From the NCBI GenBank assembly GCA_903875575.1, contig CAIQWJ010000025.1:1-64000 (forward strand): a DNA stretch of 64,000 nt, written 5' to 3'. The notes beneath the pieces were generated by a model. The model searched no databases and was not told the DNA's origin. It worked only from the letters and a program-made list of their open reading frames with translations. Of the stretch, positions 11,889 through 19,747 are shown in pieces. Each line of letters starts with the position of its first letter. Positions within the stretch are counted from its first letter, which is position 1. A program made the translations under genes and the position numbers. This stretch comes from an uncultured Acidobacteriia bacterium (GTDB lineage: Bacteria > Acidobacteriota > Terriglobia > Bryobacterales > Bryobacteraceae).

Positions 11889-12971
11889 TCAGGCGCAGAG
11901 GCGCACAACGAAGTTTTCAATCACGGTACGGTCGTCCGGTCGGGCGCTGCGCAGATCGCGGTCCGCATCGAAAATCAGCGTGAGCCCGCGCTCCAGCTGC
12001 GGCTTTGAAAACTTCGAGGCCGTCTGCCAGATCTGCTCGGCGCGCGAGCCCCACATGGGGACGCCCGTGCGCTGAAAGTGCGATTGCACCTGCGCGGAAC
12101 CCTTCAGGTTAGCTTCTTTCGCCACCAGGGCCATGCGGAACTGGCCGGCGAGGAAGGTCAACGCCAGCGGCAAATATTCACCTTCGCGTACCAGTGAATC
12201 GAGCGCTTCGAGCGATTTCGCGCGATCACGCCGCCCCAGTGCAGCTACCAGACCGAAGATGGTACTCTGGCGCGCATCGGGCACCAGCAGGGGCAGCATT
12301 TCCGCCGTAATGGGTTTGCCGTAGAGGCGCAGTTTTTCCAGTTCCACGGCGATGCGGCCCACATCGGCTGCCAGAGCTTCCACTAGCGCTTCGGCGGCGG
12401 CGGGCTCCAGGACGATCTTTGCCGCCCGCGCCATCCGCTCCAGTTCCTGCCGAGCTTCGTCTGCTGAGAACCGCCGGAACTCCACCACGTCCGGAATACT
12501 ACCGTAAAACTTGCGAACACGCTCGGTCTTTGTCTTATCATCGCCATCGAAATCCCAGCGGGTAGCCTCGAAGACGAGCGTGACTCCGGGAGTCGGATCT
12601 TTCACATAGGCCGCGAGGAGGCCTTCTTCACCCTTTGCGGCGGAAGAGCGCGATGCTCCCCCGGCTGGTGAGTCGTCATCGTCGTCGTCGCTGTCATCGG
12701 AGGCTGCTGCGCGACTGGCGCGCGGCATTGCAGTTTCAGCCCGGGTGACAATCATCAGGCGCTCGGAAGCGAACAACGACATGGCGCGGGCGTCGTCAAT
12801 GACCGTGGCCAGCGACGATTCCGCAAGGTCGAACGTTTCAGGCTGCACGGCGCGGGTTGTCAGCAGAGCCTCACGGCACCGCTGACGATTGTAGCCCTCA
12901 AGGCCGAGAAACAGGCAGACGGCAGGGAGGTCGTTCTTTTTAGCGCGCGCAAGAAACTGGGCCGGGGTCAT
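11889..12971 (-). CDS. holA: DNA polymerase III subunit delta
   Basis: The delta subunit of the clamp loader opens the sliding clamp. The 360-residue length, the N-terminus MTPAQFLARAKKNDLPAVCLFLGLEG, the AAA+-like fold with LVFEATRWD, and the C-terminal HolA collar segment (LTFLAGQFRMALVAKEA) support the call. A poly-Asp/Ser stretch (residues ~85-105, including DDSDDDDDDS) interrupts the N-terminal domain. lptE next to holA is a known arrangement in diderms. Confidence 0.9.
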   Translation of the reverse strand: MTPAQFLARAKKNDLPAVCLFLGLEGYNRQRCREALLTTRAVQPETFDLAESSLATVIDDARAMSLFASERLMIVTRAETAMPRASRAAASDDSDDDDDDSPAGGASRSSAAKGEEGLLAAYVKDPTPGVTLVFEATRWDFDGDDKTKTERVRKFYGSIPDVVEFRRFSADEARQELERMARAAKIVLEPAAAEALVEALAADVGRIAVELEKLRLYGKPITAEMLPLLVPDARQSTIFGLVAALGRRDRAKSLEALDSLVREGEYLPLALTFLAGQFRMALVAKEANLKGSAQVQSHFQRTGVPMWGSRAEQIWQTASKFSKPQLERGLTLIFDADRDLRSARPDDRTVIENFVVRLCA

Positions 12972-12989: not shown

Positions 12990-13508
12990 TCAGAATTGTT
13001 CCAGAATGGCGCTGACAACGTCCTTCGCCACATCGGTACTCAGACGCCGCATGGCCGCCTCGCTCTCGTCGAAATACTGTCCGGGATTGATGGCGATCTC
13101 ATAGCGCTCGCGAAACTCCATATTCGGCTTGCTGATGAGGACCTTTCCGGCGCGGTCCACCAGCCGGTACTGAATCTGGACGGTGATCTGCCCCGCTGTG
13201 GTGCGGGAGGCTGTGTTGTCGTAGATGGTGCCGCCGGTAGTCATGTTGGCAACGGAGCCGTAAAGGACGGCATCTGCTCTTGACACGTCGGAAACGATCT
13301 TGTAGCGGCTGCGCGAAATGAATTCCTTCGAGACCGCCGCCGCAAGGTAGTTGGAAAGCGTGTAGTGAATGCTGACATTGCCCCAGGGTGCGATGGCAAT
13401 GGTGTGAATGTCCTTCGGCAGCAGGCTGGCCTGCCCTGCGATTTGGTAGCCGCACCCGGAGAGTGTGAGTGCCAGGGCCAGAATCAACGGCGCGAACCCG
13501 CGGCTCAC
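12990..13508 (-). CDS. lptE: LPS assembly lipoprotein LptE
   Basis: A 172-residue lipoprotein precursor with lipobox LTLSGC followed by GYQIAG, the hallmark start of mature LptE. The rest contains the fold typical of the family (IHTIAIAPWGN, DAVLYGSVANM, VQIQYRLVD). LptE plugs the LptD barrel in the outer membrane to deliver LPS. The ATG overlaps the stop of the upstream asd-like gene by 4 bases. Its neighbours psd, pssA and a membrane glycosyltransferase also build the envelope. Confidence 0.9.
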   Translation of the reverse strand: MSRGFAPLILALALTLSGCGYQIAGQASLLPKDIHTIAIAPWGNVSIHYTLSNYLAAAVSKEFISRSRYKIVSDVSRADAVLYGSVANMTTGGTIYDNTASRTTAGQITVQIQYRLVDRAGKVLISKPNMEFRERYEIAINPGQYFDESEAAMRRLSTDVAKDVVSAILEQF

Positions 13509-14494
13509 AAAACCTCTCGAACGATTAACGCCGCTGTCTCCGCCAACAGGCGAAGATTGTCGGCCGCGAGCCAGAGCCAGACCGCGTTGCCGGCATTCCT
13601 ATCCGGCGTAATGGCCCCAACGGTAATGCCACTCTGCCCGGCTGCACCCACATTATCCGGCGGCTCCACTTCGGCGGTACGCACATCCACCCAGTCGCCG
13701 CTCAGCACCTCCTCGATGGACATCACATCGGGTGACTCCTCGAATTCGATCCAGAACGAAAGGCTGTAGCCGTGGAAAACAGGTGCCTGGGTCAGGCGGA
13801 TGGAAGGCATCGGAACGCCCGTCTCGGCGCGCTCCAGTAGTGTGGCCAGGTGACGATCGATACGGTCTTCCACATCGTGCAGCTGGACCGAAGCCTCTTC
13901 ACCCAGTTTGGGCAGCATATTGAAGCTGACCTGCGCAGCGAAGACTTCCTTGGGTAACTGCTGGAAGGAAAGAAGACTCACGGTCTGCTTCTGCAGTTCT
14001 TCGATGCCGCCGCGACCACGCTCGCTGGCCGGTTCAAACACGTGGATGATGGACCGCACGATCGGGAAAGCGATATGCAGCCTGCCCAGGACCAGCGCGA
14101 TGGCAACCGCGGCGGGATGCGCTGCGATCTGCGGGCCATCGTGATCCGGCCGATAGTCGCTGGTTTCCACCTGCGGAGCGCGCACGCGGGCTTCGGGGTC
14201 TTCCTCTGTGGCACCGGTCAGATCGATAACCAGGCCTTCGGGCCGGGCTTCGAGCGCCAATCGCGAGGATTCTGCGGTTCCCGCCAGGATGACAACGGCG
14301 GCGTCTTCCAGTTCGGCTGGTTCCAGTTTAGTGAGAACCGCGGGCGTCTCGCCGATGGTCGCGATGCGAATGGATTCATCGTCATCGCCCGCGAGCAGGC
14401 GCAATTGCTCGCCCAGCGACGTCTCTCCAAACACTTCGCGGATTTCGCGGCCCAGAAGCGTCTCGCTTCCGACCAGCGCAATGATGTCAGCCAA
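13505..14494 (-). CDS. Aspartate-semialdehyde dehydrogenase homologue lacking catalytic residues
   Basis: The 329 residues follow the Asd fold: an N-terminal Rossmann start (ALVGSETLLGREIREVF), VVILAGTAESS, then GRGGIEELQKQT matching the Asd AGxxGMEELxxQ segment, and a C-terminal PVFHGYSLSFWIEFEE strand. Where active Asd has NPNCST with the catalytic Cys, this protein reads AAHPAAVAIA. Where Asd has GHS with the catalytic His, it reads GYS. It therefore probably cannot reduce aspartyl phosphate and may serve another role. It overlaps lptE by 4 nt and pssA by 8 nt, so it is co-translated with lipid genes rather than lysine/threonine genes. Confidence 0.82.
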   Translation of the reverse strand: MADIIALVGSETLLGREIREVFGETSLGEQLRLLAGDDDESIRIATIGETPAVLTKLEPAELEDAAVVILAGTAESSRLALEARPEGLVIDLTGATEEDPEARVRAPQVETSDYRPDHDGPQIAAHPAAVAIALVLGRLHIAFPIVRSIIHVFEPASERGRGGIEELQKQTVSLLSFQQLPKEVFAAQVSFNMLPKLGEEASVQLHDVEDRIDRHLATLLERAETGVPMPSIRLTQAPVFHGYSLSFWIEFEESPDVMSIEEVLSGDWVDVRTAEVEPPDNVGAAGQSGITVGAITPDRNAGNAVWLWLAADNLRLLAETAALIVREVL

Positions 14495-15413
14495 CCTGGG
14501 ATGCCTCCGGAGGGGATTTTGGCGTGGGCTTCAGCACTCGCCGAAGGATGCCGCCAACGCGAATGAAAATACCGCTGGAGACGTAAATGGTGCAGAGCAG
14601 GAACAGCGCCAGTTGCGGCCAGCTCCAGATGCCGTAGATCACGGCACACATGGCCACCAGCATGAGCGGCGAGCGCGGACGCCCCAGATTGAGTTCCTTG
14701 AAACTCCAATAGCGCCAGGCGCTGACCATCAGGAAGCCCAGCACGGCCAGGAGTACCAGCCACGCAGCGGAAGAGACAAAATCCGTCAGAGGGTTGCTGC
14801 CGGCGGCGTAGATAATGGCAGCCACCATGCCCGCGGCGGCCGGAATCGGCAAGCCGACAAAGTACTTTCTGTGGGGAGCGCCCGGGTTGGAAGGTACAGG
14901 GTTCTTCTGGATGTTAAAACGGGCCAGGCGTGCCGCGCCGCAGGCAAGGAAGAGAAACGCCAGCAGCTTGCCTGTTCGTTGCAGCTGATCCAACGGAAAG
15001 GAGCCGATGGACTCACTGACGAACTGCACGCCCCAGATGTAAGCCAGGATGGCGGGCGCGATACCGAAGCTGATCACATCGGCGAGCGAATCCAGTTCAC
15101 GCCCGAATTCGCTGGTGGTGTTCGTCATGCGGGCAATACGCCCGTCCAGACCGTCCAGCACGACAGCCAGGCCGATCGTTTTGGCGGCCACTTCAAAATC
15201 CTGCTGCGCCAGCGCGGGGTGAATCCCAAAATTCAGGGCACCCTGAATGGTTCGGACGATGGACAGGTAGCCGAGAAAGATATTGCCGGCAGTGAAGAGA
15301 GTGGGCAGAGCGTAGGCCGCGCGCGAGGGACGTTTTCTCTGCGGCGGCGGATCTATTGCATCGGACAGGTTTATGTCTGACTGGTTTATGTCTGACTGGT
15401 TTATGTCTGACAA
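14487..15413 (-). CDS. pssA: CDP-diacylglycerol-serine O-phosphatidyltransferase
   Basis: It makes phosphatidylserine from CDP-diacylglycerol and serine in the inner membrane. The CDP-alcohol phosphotransferase motif is intact: DGLDGRIARMT then GRELDSLAD. About eight membrane helices follow. The 308-residue form has an N-terminal extension encoded by three 15-bp repeats (SDINQ units). The start overlaps the end of psd by 13 nt. With psd it gives phosphatidylethanolamine. Confidence 0.93.
   Translation of the reverse strand: MSDINQSDINQSDINLSDAIDPPPQRKRPSRAAYALPTLFTAGNIFLGYLSIVRTIQGALNFGIHPALAQQDFEVAAKTIGLAVVLDGLDGRIARMTNTTSEFGRELDSLADVISFGIAPAILAYIWGVQFVSESIGSFPLDQLQRTGKLLAFLFLACGAARLARFNIQKNPVPSNPGAPHRKYFVGLPIPAAAGMVAAIIYAAGSNPLTDFVSSAAWLVLLAVLGFLMVSAWRYWSFKELNLGRPRSPLMLVAMCAVIYGIWSWPQLALFLLCTIYVSSGIFIRVGGILRRVLKPTPKSPPEASQVG
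15369..15413. repeat. Three 15-bp tandem repeats at the pssA start
   Basis: The unit TTTATGTCTGACTGG recurs three times head to tail; the third copy diverges at its end. On the minus strand the ATG of each copy reads as SDINQ/SDINL within the pssA N-terminus, and the array overlaps the psd stop. Since 15 is a multiple of three, copy-number change would keep frame. Confidence 0.8.
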
Positions 15414-16066
15414 AGCGCCGGCTCCTTTAGTCCCGCCTTCATGGCAAGCGGCAACGTCACTTCACCGGCGCGCCGCGCCAGAATGCTGGAGCCCGCACTC
15501 ACACGCATACCCGGCTTCACTTCGATCCGCCATTCAGGACCAAGGATCACGTCCATGCGCGAACCAAACTTGATCAGGCCGATGCGCTCGCCCGCCTGCA
15601 CAAAATCACCTTGCTTCTTGCTGAAAATGATCCGACGCGCGATCAGGCCGGCAATCTGCTTGAACACCACCTGGGTGCCATCCTGGGCACGAACCGTAAT
15701 GATGGTCTGTTCGTTATCGGTGGAGGCGGCTTCCAGACTTGCCACCAGGAACTTACCCTTCTGGTAAACGAAGTCGGTCACAATGCCGGAGATGGGCGTT
15801 CGATTGACGTGGACATCAAAAATATTCAGGAAGATACTGATGCGGGTCAGGCCCTCTCCTTCGGCCACCACAGCCACGACCTTGCCATCCGCCGGGGAGA
15901 CGGCAACGGGACCGACGGGAATGGGACGCTCCGGGTCGCGGAAGAACCACGCGCAAAATGCGGCGAGCAGAAACAGTGGCAGGGCGACCAGGGGGCCGAG
16001 CAGCCATGAAATCAGTGTGCCTGCGGCGGTGAAGCCGAGCGCGTAGTAAATGCCATCGCGAACCAT
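15401..16066 (-). CDS. psd: Phosphatidylserine decarboxylase proenzyme, short form
   Basis: It converts phosphatidylserine to phosphatidylethanolamine. The 221-residue length and two N-terminal membrane helices match the short Psd form. The presumed self-cleavage site is FGSRMDV near residue 180, where the Ser becomes the pyruvoyl group. Motifs VAVSPADGKVVAV and FLNIFDVHVNRTPISG are well conserved. It lies upstream of pssA with overlap, and 48 bp downstream of glnE. Confidence 0.93.
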   Translation of the reverse strand: MVRDGIYYALGFTAAGTLISWLLGPLVALPLFLLAAFCAWFFRDPERPIPVGPVAVSPADGKVVAVVAEGEGLTRISIFLNIFDVHVNRTPISGIVTDFVYQKGKFLVASLEAASTDNEQTIITVRAQDGTQVVFKQIAGLIARRIIFSKKQGDFVQAGERIGLIKFGSRMDVILGPEWRIEVKPGMRVSAGSSILARRAGEVTLPLAMKAGLKEPALCQT

Positions 16067-16114: not shown

Positions 16115-19100
16115 TCATTCGGGAGCGAAGATTCTCTCAAAAAAGGCCCGAGTGTCGTGACGGATTCGCCGGCTGACGGACTCCAGGGTTCCCTGATTCA
16201 GCGACGGCGGAGTCCAGCGGCGCACCAGGTCGGTGAGCACCGCGATCTGCGCCGGGCTGGCCGGGAGACGCCCTTCCGCATGGCCGGTTGCCACGCGCAG
16301 GCCATGGTCCACGGCGCGAAAAAATGTGGCGGCGTCGCTTAGAAACGCCGCGTCTTCGGCGCTCAGATTTCCGGATTCCACAATGACAGCAATACGTTTC
16401 GGAGTATTGAGAACTTTGTAAAAGCTCCCGGCGTCGCGCAGCCGGAGGTACATCAGCACGAAATCGATATCGTAGTAACCGCCGGTGCCGGCCTTCAGGG
16501 GATTACGAACGCCCTGTTCGCGTTCCAGGCGCTTGCGCATGTGTGCGAGTTCTTCCCGCGAGCGCCGTCCCTGACCGTAGCGCTCCCAGTCGATCGTCTG
16601 CAACTCGCCCAGAAAAGCCGTGCCACATTCCGGATTGCCCGCGATGGCGCGGGCTTTCATGTACGAAATCCCTTCCCAGGCCTGGGCGCTTTGGGCAAAG
16701 TACTTCCGGTAAGTGCCTTCCGTCTGCACGAGCGCTCCCTCGCGACCATTGGGCCGGAGACGGGTATCGATGGTGAAGACGACGCCGTCGCCAGTGTAAG
16801 CGCCAATCACGCCGATGAGCCGCTCTGCCACCAGGTTCCAGAAGGCAGTCTCGGCGGCATCCGCGTCCGGAAGCACGAAGTTCAGGTCGGCGTCGGAAGC
16901 CAGATCGAACTCGCGCATGCCCAGCCGTCCCAGAGCGATCACCATCATCTGATTGACGGCCCGGTAGCGCGGATTCGAGGGCGGAGCGATGGCGAGCGCT
17001 TCTTCGAGCGCCACGTCATAGGCGGCGGCAATGATGGAATCCGCCAGATCCGAGGTGCGCTGCAGAGTTCGGAAAACCGGCACGCGATGGTACACGCTAT
17101 CGGCCTGGATTCGGACCATCTGCTGCCGAAAGTATAGACGAAGCGCTGCCGCGTCACGCGGTGCGCTGAAGCCTGTTCTCCCCTGCTTTGCACCGCAGGC
17201 CTGTTCCACTTCGGCCAGCAGTGCGGGATGGCGGACCAGCTGGTCCGCGAAGTACTGGCTGTGTTCGAAAAGATCGATCACGCAGCGGGCTACTTCGGCA
17301 TTGGAATCGAGCAGCGTGAGCCAATGCGGATTGGCGACAGCCTTTTCGAGGAAGGATTCAAAACTATCCTGGCTGCGGACAATGCCGCCGCTGGAAATCA
17401 ATTGCCGGAATGCGGGAGCGCGTAGTTCCAGAAAGCGGCTGAGATTGACGCTGGGAAACTCACTTCGGGCGGGGGCGTCGCTCTCCGTGCCGGGGATCGC
17501 CGGCGTTCCCTGGACCAGAGGGAAGTCGTAGGGGATCGTAAACGTCTCCGGACGGTGTGAGTGAATCACGCGCTCGTAAAGATCCTGCACATTGGTGAAA
17601 TGGTGATCCAGTTCGCGCTGCAGGGTGCCGGCGGAGGGCAAACCAGGCAGCCCCACAGGCATCTTTCGGGCGAGAAGGTCGATATCTTCCTTGTCGGATG
17701 GCAGAGTATGAGTCTGCCGATCTTCGTCGAATTGCAGACGATGTTCCACGTGGCGCAGGAACTGATAGGCGTTGGCAAGCCGGGAAAATTCCGAAGGTGA
17801 GAGCAGTTCCTTATCGCGCAGGCGTGAAAGTGCCAGCAGCGTCCCACCATGCCGCACCCACGGTTCGCGACCGCCATGCAGACGCTGGAGGCATTGCACC
17901 AGAAACTCGATATCGCGAATGCCGCCTTTGGCGAGTTTCACGTCGAGCGCATCGTCGGCCGGTGTCTTATCAGACGTGCGGCCCTGCCGGATTCTGTTGT
18001 TCTCAACCCGCGCACGCTTCGCCCTTGCCTGCTTCTCATGGATGCGCGCCCGCGTTTCGGAAACAGCCTCCACGGTCCGGAAATCCGTAGTAGTGCGATA
18101 AATGAGGGGCTCCACAAAATCCAGAAGTTCATGGCCGGGCGCGGTATCGCCTGCTGCCACGCGCGCCTTGATAAGCATCTGGAGCTCCCAATCGCGGGCG
18201 CGGGTCGCATAGTATTGCCGGGAGCTTCCGATCGACTGGCAGATTTCACCCAGCTTGCCATCCGGCCGGAGGCGCAGATCCACGCGATAACAAAGGCCTT
18301 CCGGCGAGTAGGTGGAGAGCAATTCCGTCATGCGGCCAGCCGCAAGTTTGAAAAACTCCTTCGGGGTGATCGTTCCTTCTTCCGCCGCCTGGCTTCCGCC
18401 GGAGTGGACGAACATCAGATCGATATCGGAACTGTAATTCAGTTCGCGGCCACCAAGTTTGCCGAGAGCCATGACGCTGAACTCGGGAATGACGCCGCCT
18501 GCCGCGGATGGCATCCCGCGTTCGCCCGCCAGATCGCGCCGCACGGCGCGCCACGTCACGTTCAGAATGGCGTCGGCGAGGTTGGAAAGATCTTCGGCCG
18601 TCTCAGAAAGATCGGCGTATTTCAGTACATCCCGCAGCACAATACGAAGCAGCTGCCGCCGCCGGAAGAGCGCCAGATCCACAGGCCGGGGTGTTGCGTT
18701 GCCCAGGATGCTCTGCAACGCGTCTTCATAGTCCTCAGCCAGAAAACCCCGGTGCAGATCGTGAGCTGTGGCGATATCGAGGAGCCACTCGGGGTAGCGG
18801 ATCACGGCCTCGGAAAGGAAACGGCTCCACGAAAAGATGGTCAGGGCATAACGCAGCGCGATGAGATTCCCCGCGATGGACCGGGCCGCGCCCGGCGCTT
18901 CCATAATCAGTCGCTTCAGGTAATGAACGGCATCGTCGCGATTCGGCAGCGAGCGGAGGAGCGCCTGAACCACACGATAGACGTCGGGCGGCAGTTGTTC
19001 GAGCGCGGCGATGGCGGGGGCCACGCGCTGGGCATCGCGAAATTCAAGTTCCTCCAGAAGAGATAAAGAGGCGGCTTCAGGCACTGGTTCGATTATCCGA

Positions 19101-19168
19101 CGCCGACCCGACGAATGCCACACAAGATTATCCCTTTGACTGGAAGCGCCGCGTGCGATAGCATTCAT
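16115..19168 (-). CDS. glnE: Bifunctional glutamine synthetase adenylyltransferase/deadenylyltransferase
   Basis: GlnE adds or removes AMP on glutamine synthetase in response to nitrogen status through PII. Two nucleotidyltransferase domains are visible: the first around GKLGGRELNYSSDIDLMFV (GGRE..SDIDL) and the second around GRLGMREFDLASDADLNFV. About 1017 residues from ATG 19168. The frame is open further upstream, but that would run into the divergent lipoprotein gene; a later GTG start is possible. It leads the psd-pssA-lptE cluster. Confidence 0.92.
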   Translation of the reverse strand: MNAIARGASSQRDNLVWHSSGRRRIIEPVPEAASLSLLEELEFRDAQRVAPAIAALEQLPPDVYRVVQALLRSLPNRDDAVHYLKRLIMEAPGAARSIAGNLIALRYALTIFSWSRFLSEAVIRYPEWLLDIATAHDLHRGFLAEDYEDALQSILGNATPRPVDLALFRRRQLLRIVLRDVLKYADLSETAEDLSNLADAILNVTWRAVRRDLAGERGMPSAAGGVIPEFSVMALGKLGGRELNYSSDIDLMFVHSGGSQAAEEGTITPKEFFKLAAGRMTELLSTYSPEGLCYRVDLRLRPDGKLGEICQSIGSSRQYYATRARDWELQMLIKARVAAGDTAPGHELLDFVEPLIYRTTTDFRTVEAVSETRARIHEKQARAKRARVENNRIRQGRTSDKTPADDALDVKLAKGGIRDIEFLVQCLQRLHGGREPWVRHGGTLLALSRLRDKELLSPSEFSRLANAYQFLRHVEHRLQFDEDRQTHTLPSDKEDIDLLARKMPVGLPGLPSAGTLQRELDHHFTNVQDLYERVIHSHRPETFTIPYDFPLVQGTPAIPGTESDAPARSEFPSVNLSRFLELRAPAFRQLISSGGIVRSQDSFESFLEKAVANPHWLTLLDSNAEVARCVIDLFEHSQYFADQLVRHPALLAEVEQACGAKQGRTGFSAPRDAAALRLYFRQQMVRIQADSVYHRVPVFRTLQRTSDLADSIIAAAYDVALEEALAIAPPSNPRYRAVNQMMVIALGRLGMREFDLASDADLNFVLPDADAAETAFWNLVAERLIGVIGAYTGDGVVFTIDTRLRPNGREGALVQTEGTYRKYFAQSAQAWEGISYMKARAIAGNPECGTAFLGELQTIDWERYGQGRRSREELAHMRKRLEREQGVRNPLKAGTGGYYDIDFVLMYLRLRDAGSFYKVLNTPKRIAVIVESGNLSAEDAAFLSDAATFFRAVDHGLRVATGHAEGRLPASPAQIAVLTDLVRRWTPPSLNQGTLESVSRRIRHDTRAFFERIFAPE

Positions 19169-19183
19169 CCGGGAGAATCCTGA

Positions 19184-19747
19184 ATGAAACGAACATACAT
19201 AGCAGGTAGTGCCGTCGGGTTGCTGATGCTGCTGGCCGGATGCTCGGATACGCCCGCGCCGCCGCCGGATACGTCCGCCGCCGATCAGAAAGCCCTTCGC
19301 GACGGCGAAGAGACCTGGGTTAAAGAATGGGCGGCAAAGGACGCGGATAAGATTGCGGCCCACTATGCCGATGACGCCACGCTTGCGTTAACCGATATGC
19401 CGCTGGTGAAAGGCAGGGATTCCATTCGAACCACTATCAAAGGATTCCTGGCGGACAAAAACCTGGCGCTGAGTTTCACGCCGTCAAACGTGGCTCTATC
19501 GAAAGGCGGCGACCTGGCCTACACGCAGGGTTCCTATTCGATCACGCAAACGAATGCAAAGACGAAGAAGGCCGAAGTGGAGAAGGGCAAGTACGTGACT
19601 GTTTATAAGAAGCAGGCCGACGGTGCCTGGAAGGTTGTGGCCGATATCGACAATCGCGACGCGCCAGCCGCACCGGTAGCCGGAGCTAAGAGCGCGAAGA
19701 CTGCAAAGAAGGCTGCGCCGGCGGCCCACAGGAAAAAGAAGAAGTAG
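19184..19747 (+). CDS. Secreted NTF2-like lipoprotein (DUF4440/SnoaL-like)
   Basis: A signal peptide ending in lipobox LLAGC (Cys about residue 20) marks a lipoprotein. The middle part (WVKEWAAKDADKIAAHYADDATLAL to GKYVTVYKKQADGAWKVVADI) is the NTF2-like DUF4440 fold. The tail is Lys/Ala-rich (KSAKTAKKAAP, ending in KKKK), perhaps binding cell-wall or nucleic acid anions. Ligand and role are unknown. GGGAG 10 nt upstream supports the start. Confidence 0.85.
   Translation: MKRTYIAGSAVGLLMLLAGCSDTPAPPPDTSAADQKALRDGEETWVKEWAAKDADKIAAHYADDATLALTDMPLVKGRDSIRTTIKGFLADKNLALSFTPSNVALSKGGDLAYTQGSYSITQTNAKTKKAEVEKGKYVTVYKKQADGAWKVVADIDNRDAPAAPVAGAKSAKTAKKAAPAAHRKKKK

Follow-up and report, generated by a model that had tools for sequence, protein, structure and literature searches.

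An Asd-fold pseudoenzyme of Acidobacteriota that is usually encoded next to the phospholipid gene pssA

We analyzed a stretch of 64,000 nucleotides (the window) from an uncultured Acidobacteriia bacterium of the family Bryobacteraceae (contig CAIQWJ010000025.1 of assembly GCA_903875575.1). On its minus strand it encodes a 329 amino acid protein, termed X (13505..14494), which has the fold of aspartate-semialdehyde dehydrogenase (Asd) and is devoid of Cys. Sequence comparisons provide good support for X being an Asd-fold pseudoenzyme, from which the working parts of the Asd enzyme are gone. Because this inactive form, encountered here in a soil bacterium, is widespread in the phylum and usually lies beside the same lipid gene, X probably serves the construction of the cell envelope in a non-metabolic way.

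Results

The gene row of X in the window

X is part of the minus-strand gene row glnE-psd-pssA-X-lptE-holA. It is preceded by a gene for a GlnE-like adenylyltransferase (16115..19363; PF03710, E 1.9e-97), which lies upstream of psd, encoding phosphatidylserine decarboxylase (15401..16066; PF02666, E 7.5e-42), and by pssA, encoding CDP-diacylglycerol-serine O-phosphatidyltransferase (14487..15413; TIGR00473, 121.7 bits against a cut-off of 107). It is followed by lptE, which encodes the LPS-assembly lipoprotein (12990..13508; PF04390, 48.7 bits, cut-off 23), and by holA, which encodes the delta subunit of DNA polymerase III (11889..12971; TIGR01128, 151.5 bits, cut-off 80). The overlaps with both neighbours that had been noted in the initial annotation are confirmed: the stop of pssA and the start of X share 8 nt (14487..14494, minus strand, TTGGCTGA), and the stop of X and the start of lptE share 4 nt (13505..13508, minus strand, GTGA). 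X starts with TTG, and this start is supported because six other loci (L005, L006, L032, L034, L070 and L071) share a TTG located 8 nt inside pssA.

The genome has a separate, real Asd, which is a divergent copy with the motif NPNCST (L002). It adjoins lysC and is the only real Asd found there; its presence rules out that X is the organism's own Asd. The genome moreover encodes its own ArgC (L003).

X retains the fold of Asd

In Pfam, X matches the dimerisation domain only (Semialdhyde_dhC, 60.8 bits, cut-off 26), and it stays far under the cut-offs of the NCBIfam Asd models (81.2 as opposed to 324.2 bits for TIGR01296, asd_B). An AlphaFold2 model based on 61 relatives has a pLDDT of 95.9 and a pTM of 0.94; rows with undetermined residues, as well as L119, L124 and L127, had been dropped from the underlying 61-row alignment. 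The best match of the model among solved structures is 2hjs (Z 36.0, rmsd 2.5, 318 aligned residues), annotated as 'USG-1 protein homolog', which is also the best match of X to PDB sequences (E 8.1e-18). The best active Asd enzymes score nearly as high (Z 34-35.5), including AsdII of V. cholerae (2qz9, Z 35.1). Thus, as the predicted structure and the sequence domain match both indicate, the two-domain Asd fold spans the entire chain (Z 34-36 for the best entries), and X contains the dimerisation-domain motif ELxxQ..LL..FxxQxxFNxxP. N-acetyl-gamma-glutamyl-phosphate reductase (ArgC) has the same superfamily fold (Z about 26), but it retains the Cys that X lacks. X appears to be derived from the Asd family, with its two-domain fold and dimerisation half retained.

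Catalytic, substrate and cofactor residues of Asd are replaced in X

We compared the Asd sites in 120 X rows, made up of the window, 36 named loci and 83 loci contributed by the phylum sample, with seven true-Asd loci excluded. The rows include one duplicate, since L058 is the window itself; L035 and L038 are incomplete, and some species are probably shared by the named and the sample sets. X of the window reads QIAAHPAAVAIAL at the Cys site, where His126-Pro127 (codons at 14114..14119, minus strand) take the place of Asn-Cys in the Asd active-site motif NPNC. Asn and Cys of this motif are present in 9/9 active Asd rows, whereas none of the X rows has a Cys in the Cys column, which holds Pro in 105, Ala in eight, Ser in four, and Gln, Gly and a gap in one each. 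Cys occurs within three columns of the site in five rows (L113, L114, L117, L125 and L129). The register is that of MAFFT; the pairwise HMMER alignment is shifted by two residues and pairs Pro127 with the Pro of NPNC. We favour the MAFFT register because deep relatives read NPHP (e.g., L076), and in either register X of the window has no Cys at the site.

The active-site Arg and His of Asd are R270 and H277 in H. influenzae, as numbered in PDB titles. The Arg column of X contains Gln in 86 of the 120 rows, including that of the window, His in 10, Arg in 6 and other residues in 18. At the His site the window reads QAPVFHGYSLS, in which Tyr243 occupies the column of the catalytic His and His241 is characteristic of X (His241-Gly-Tyr243, codons at 13766..13774, minus strand). 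The initial annotation had stressed the change of GHS to GYS, which is real in the window and yet not fixed among X proteins, since the column holds Tyr in 60 rows, His in 35 and others in 25. Retention of Cys and His by orthologues, named there as an argument against a pseudoenzyme, is therefore seen for the His of these 35 rows and never for the Cys. The Gln column is Glu in 61 rows, Gln in 31 and another residue in 28.

The substrate residues of Asd, R103, E243 and K246 by their names in PDB titles, were matched to their columns by motif and by eye: the R103 column of X has Glu in 46 and Asp in 17 of the 120 rows, the E243 column has mostly Thr, Val, Leu or Ala, and the K246 column has mostly Arg (82 rows), with Lys in 4. 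In the NADP site of Asd, the motif GxTGxxG together with the Arg of SARSAG, the middle Gly of the former is changed to Ser or Thr in 110/120 rows and the 2'-phosphate-site Arg of the latter to Glu or Asp in 96/120. With the fold kept, the Cys gone in the relatives as well and a real Asd elsewhere in the genome, the original description of X as an Asd-like pseudoenzyme inside a phospholipid/LPS operon holds.

Other positions are conserved in X and differ from Asd. Among 66 diverse rows these are His126 (52), Pro127 (55), Pro155 (64), Phe240 (66), His241 (57), Trp306 (59) and Trp308 (64), and Q170 is conserved in all 66. His126 is not universal, as L008 and L023 have Gln or Ala there, and the invariant columns are for the most part structural (G, P, L, F, A, W). 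In view of the conserved positions, drift without a role is not expected.

X forms a separate clade that is widespread in Acidobacteriota

The spread of X was assessed within Acidobacteriota, as the scan of genome contigs detects close relatives only. X is carried by 117 of the 297 sampled genomes at E <= 1e-20, after subtraction of eight true-Asd places (NPNC) and one unclear place (G090:C81, L169), and with weaker places, such as those in G200 and G081, left uncounted. A 21-member X profile matches in 131/297 genomes and a 61-member profile, from which the 117 were derived, in 140/297 at E up to 1e-10. Among 20 pssA loci from genomes that were X-less by the first profile, two (L146 and L150) do encode an X immediately downstream of pssA. 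Both copies are very diverged, one giving a weak Pfam match and the other none; because the first profile missed them, the counts of X are lower bounds.

The nearest of 36 named relatives, at 79% identity, belongs to a Bryobacteraceae MAG, and 34 of the 36 bear Acidobacteriota names, the other two being MAGs under the label Rhodanobacteraceae. These two (L023 and L030) have a psd-pssA-X row like that of Acidobacteriaceae and are probably mislabelled or mixed bins.

In a tree of 77 rows, a branch supported at 100/100 divides all 66 X rows from active Asd and from Usg, another Asd-fold protein without the catalytic Cys; both Usg rows fall on the side of active Asd. L129 and L130, beyond the chosen range, as well as L114 and L125, by hand, were left out of the tree. 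The simplest reading of these sequences, with only two from Usg, would be a single loss of the Cys in X, independent of the loss in Usg.

The dN/dS of X in comparison to L005 is about 0.08, a rough value because synonymous sites are near saturation; psd and holA give similar values, 0.05 and 0.06. This value and the retention in 117/297 genomes argue that X is not there by chance. A decayed or frame-broken gene is ruled out by the open frame, the low dN/dS and the phylum-wide retention.

psd-pssA is the constant neighbour of X

pssA is directly upstream of X at 99 of the 117 X places, 16 are without a pssA link and two are at contig ends. Adjacency was taken from the pssA matches listed and elsewhere from fetched loci, and G192 (519 nt) was included among the adjacent cases, given that its match begins within the protein. 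In the window and the named loci, pssA is upstream on the same strand in 37/37 cases and within 150 nt in 35/37. Tallied by hand, the link is found in 29 of the 34 genome families whose context could be read. L022 is the only clear case among these 37 loci in which pssA and X are set apart, by about 1.3 kb with an extra ORF (L022:3639-4979).

lptE follows X in 10 of 83 phylum-sample loci and in 13 of the 37 window and named loci. Of the 83, 29 span just 4 kb, and diverged copies may be missed, as the query was the window's own LptE. The order pssA-X-lptE is seen in the window, in Bryobacterales and in some other Terriglobia. In Acidobacteriaceae an unrelated sugar kinase takes the place of lptE (one locus scanned), and some lineages have unrelated genes downstream of X. 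A constant partnership of X with lptE is weakened by most loci read, which have no lptE match after X. Thus, the constant partner of X is psd-pssA and the lptE neighbour is lineage-specific, so that of the neighbourhood described initially the phospholipid part is conserved and the lptE part is confined to a minority.

At the 16 places without pssA, X is found directly before an msbA-like gene followed by yicC, or before yicC itself. Three of the msbA-like products were scanned and have the lipid A exporter MsbA as their best NCBIfam match, at 543.9 to 574 bits (cut-off 602). An msbA-like gene is downstream of X in 11 loci, and because four of them (L089, L119, L162 and L163) have psd-pssA-X-msbA in one row, the pssA-type and the msbA-type arrangements are linked.

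In 16 loci, lolC/E- or lolD-like genes are downstream of X; the two LolC/E-like proteins and the one LolD-like protein scanned have TIGR02212 and TIGR02211 as their best matches, below cut-off. In many loci (15 grouped), a protein of 260 aa, apparently with a signal sequence, is encoded between X and the lolC-like genes; its L105 copy (L105:6006-6797) has no Pfam match. Other genes come after pssA where X is absent, and in two such genomes (L139 and L147) they are lolC-like. Because of these two, the lolC association may belong to pssA, which weakens lolC/lolD as an X-specific partner. Both have psd-pssA followed by lolC-like genes in an otherwise similar row, from which X was possibly lost.

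The link to PssA also has its limits. PssA is present in 277/297 genomes as compared to 117 with X, and most PssA genomes are without X; therefore, PssA works without X. Conversely, five X genomes that are 92-97% complete (G093, G154, G194, G146 and G296) have no match to TIGR00473 (PssA) or PF02666 (Psd), though other CDP-alcohol phosphatidyltransferases (PF01066) are present. X is kept in these genomes without detectable PssA or Psd and is thus not strictly tied to PS/PE synthesis. This suggests that their loci (L091, L083, L078, L100 and L094, respectively) belong to lineages without the usual PE pathway.

Discussion

We take X to be an ancient, selected Asd-fold pseudoenzyme and regard it as quite possible that it acts in the cytoplasm as a regulator or sensor for phospholipid and outer-membrane biogenesis, a mechanism that we infer. 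In line with such a role, envelope genes of different kinds (lptE, msbA-like, lolC/lolD-like) lie downstream of X in separate lineages. The observed gene order and frequent overlap suggest that X would be co-transcribed and translationally coupled with pssA. The protein itself would be cytoplasmic and probably dimeric, and its remodelled former active-site pocket (His126, Pro127, His241 and Trp308) would probably accommodate a ligand or a partner protein. X may in this way adjust or stabilise PssA/Psd, or balance the supply of phospholipids with that of outer-membrane components (LPS or lipoproteins). If the envelope link is real, X is a candidate, testable by knock-out, for the coordination of phospholipid and outer-membrane synthesis in a large diderm phylum. 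It is conceivable, if rather doubtful, that X is a phylum-wide lipid-homeostasis regulator made from a dead dehydrogenase, whose rebuilt site (His126-Pro127-His241-Trp308) would respond to a small molecule, for instance a nucleotide, CDP-DAG or serine, and tune PS/PE synthesis against LPS or lipoprotein export. Acidobacteriota would then have an unrelated counterpart of the LpxC-FtsH-LapB-type balancing system of E. coli.

X might instead be a neo-enzyme, whose pocket was rebuilt for another reaction via His126 and His241, perhaps with NAD in place of NADP. Both His are conserved in most of the diverse rows, and the replacement of the 2'-phosphate-site Arg by Glu or Asp is the type of change seen in NADP-to-NAD switches; we nevertheless think such an enzyme unlikely, as His126 is not universal, the dinucleotide loop has Ser or Thr for its middle Gly in nearly all rows and the invariant columns are mostly structural. 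The homology to Asd, which is strongest in the dimerisation half, would also fit a role of X in regulating the genuine Asd, or the aspartate/serine pathway, as a partner; its place beside pssA would then be historical. This is improbable, considering that the only real Asd found in the genome is the divergent copy beside lysC, and that lysC/dapA are beside 4/7 real Asd loci but beside none of the X loci listed. A scaffold or regulator joining lipid synthesis to LPS export had been considered possible in the initial annotation, and the conserved psd-pssA neighbour is in line with the first half of this idea. A physical bridge between PssA/Psd and the Lpt machinery, as the overlapping order pssA-X-lptE might imply, is very improbable, however: most loci lack an lptE match after X, and other lineages have msbA- or lolC/lolD-like genes there. 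Moreover, X opens directly with a Rossmann strand and has no signal peptide by eye, whereas the window's LptE has a lipobox-like LSGC in its sequence. LptE resides in a compartment other than the cytoplasm, to which X appears to belong, and direct contact between X and LptE is therefore unlikely.

Finally, X could be the proteobacterial Usg (USG-1) under another name. Usg of E. coli and of P. aeruginosa (2hjs) likewise combines the Asd fold with the loss of the catalytic Cys, which is Ser in E. coli Usg; the Arg column of the latter is Gln, as it often is in X, and 2hjs is the best PDB sequence match. We give this identity hardly any chance and reject it on tree placement, even though only two Usg sequences are in the tree: Usg branches with active Asd, whereas X is a fully supported separate clade beside psd-pssA. 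Regulation or sensing in envelope biogenesis remains our preferred reading of X, which would then represent a second origin, besides Usg, of Asd-family pseudoenzymes. Inactive Asd-fold proteins are already known from Usg. The X clade, its phylum-wide spread and its psd-pssA neighbourhood, or indeed any Asd-like gene adjacent to pssA, did not turn up in the open-licence literature searched. X proteins match Asd models and are likely annotated as aspartate-semialdehyde dehydrogenase despite the lost nucleophile, substrate and cofactor residues; they also differ from Asd in lying among phospholipid genes and away from lysC/dapA. The gene context differs from that of Usg as well, since no TruA match was found in 90 X and Asd loci, whereas E. 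coli usg adjoins truA in the row pdxB-usg-truA-dedA. For this row, effects on oxidative stress and survival are reported (PMC6358828).
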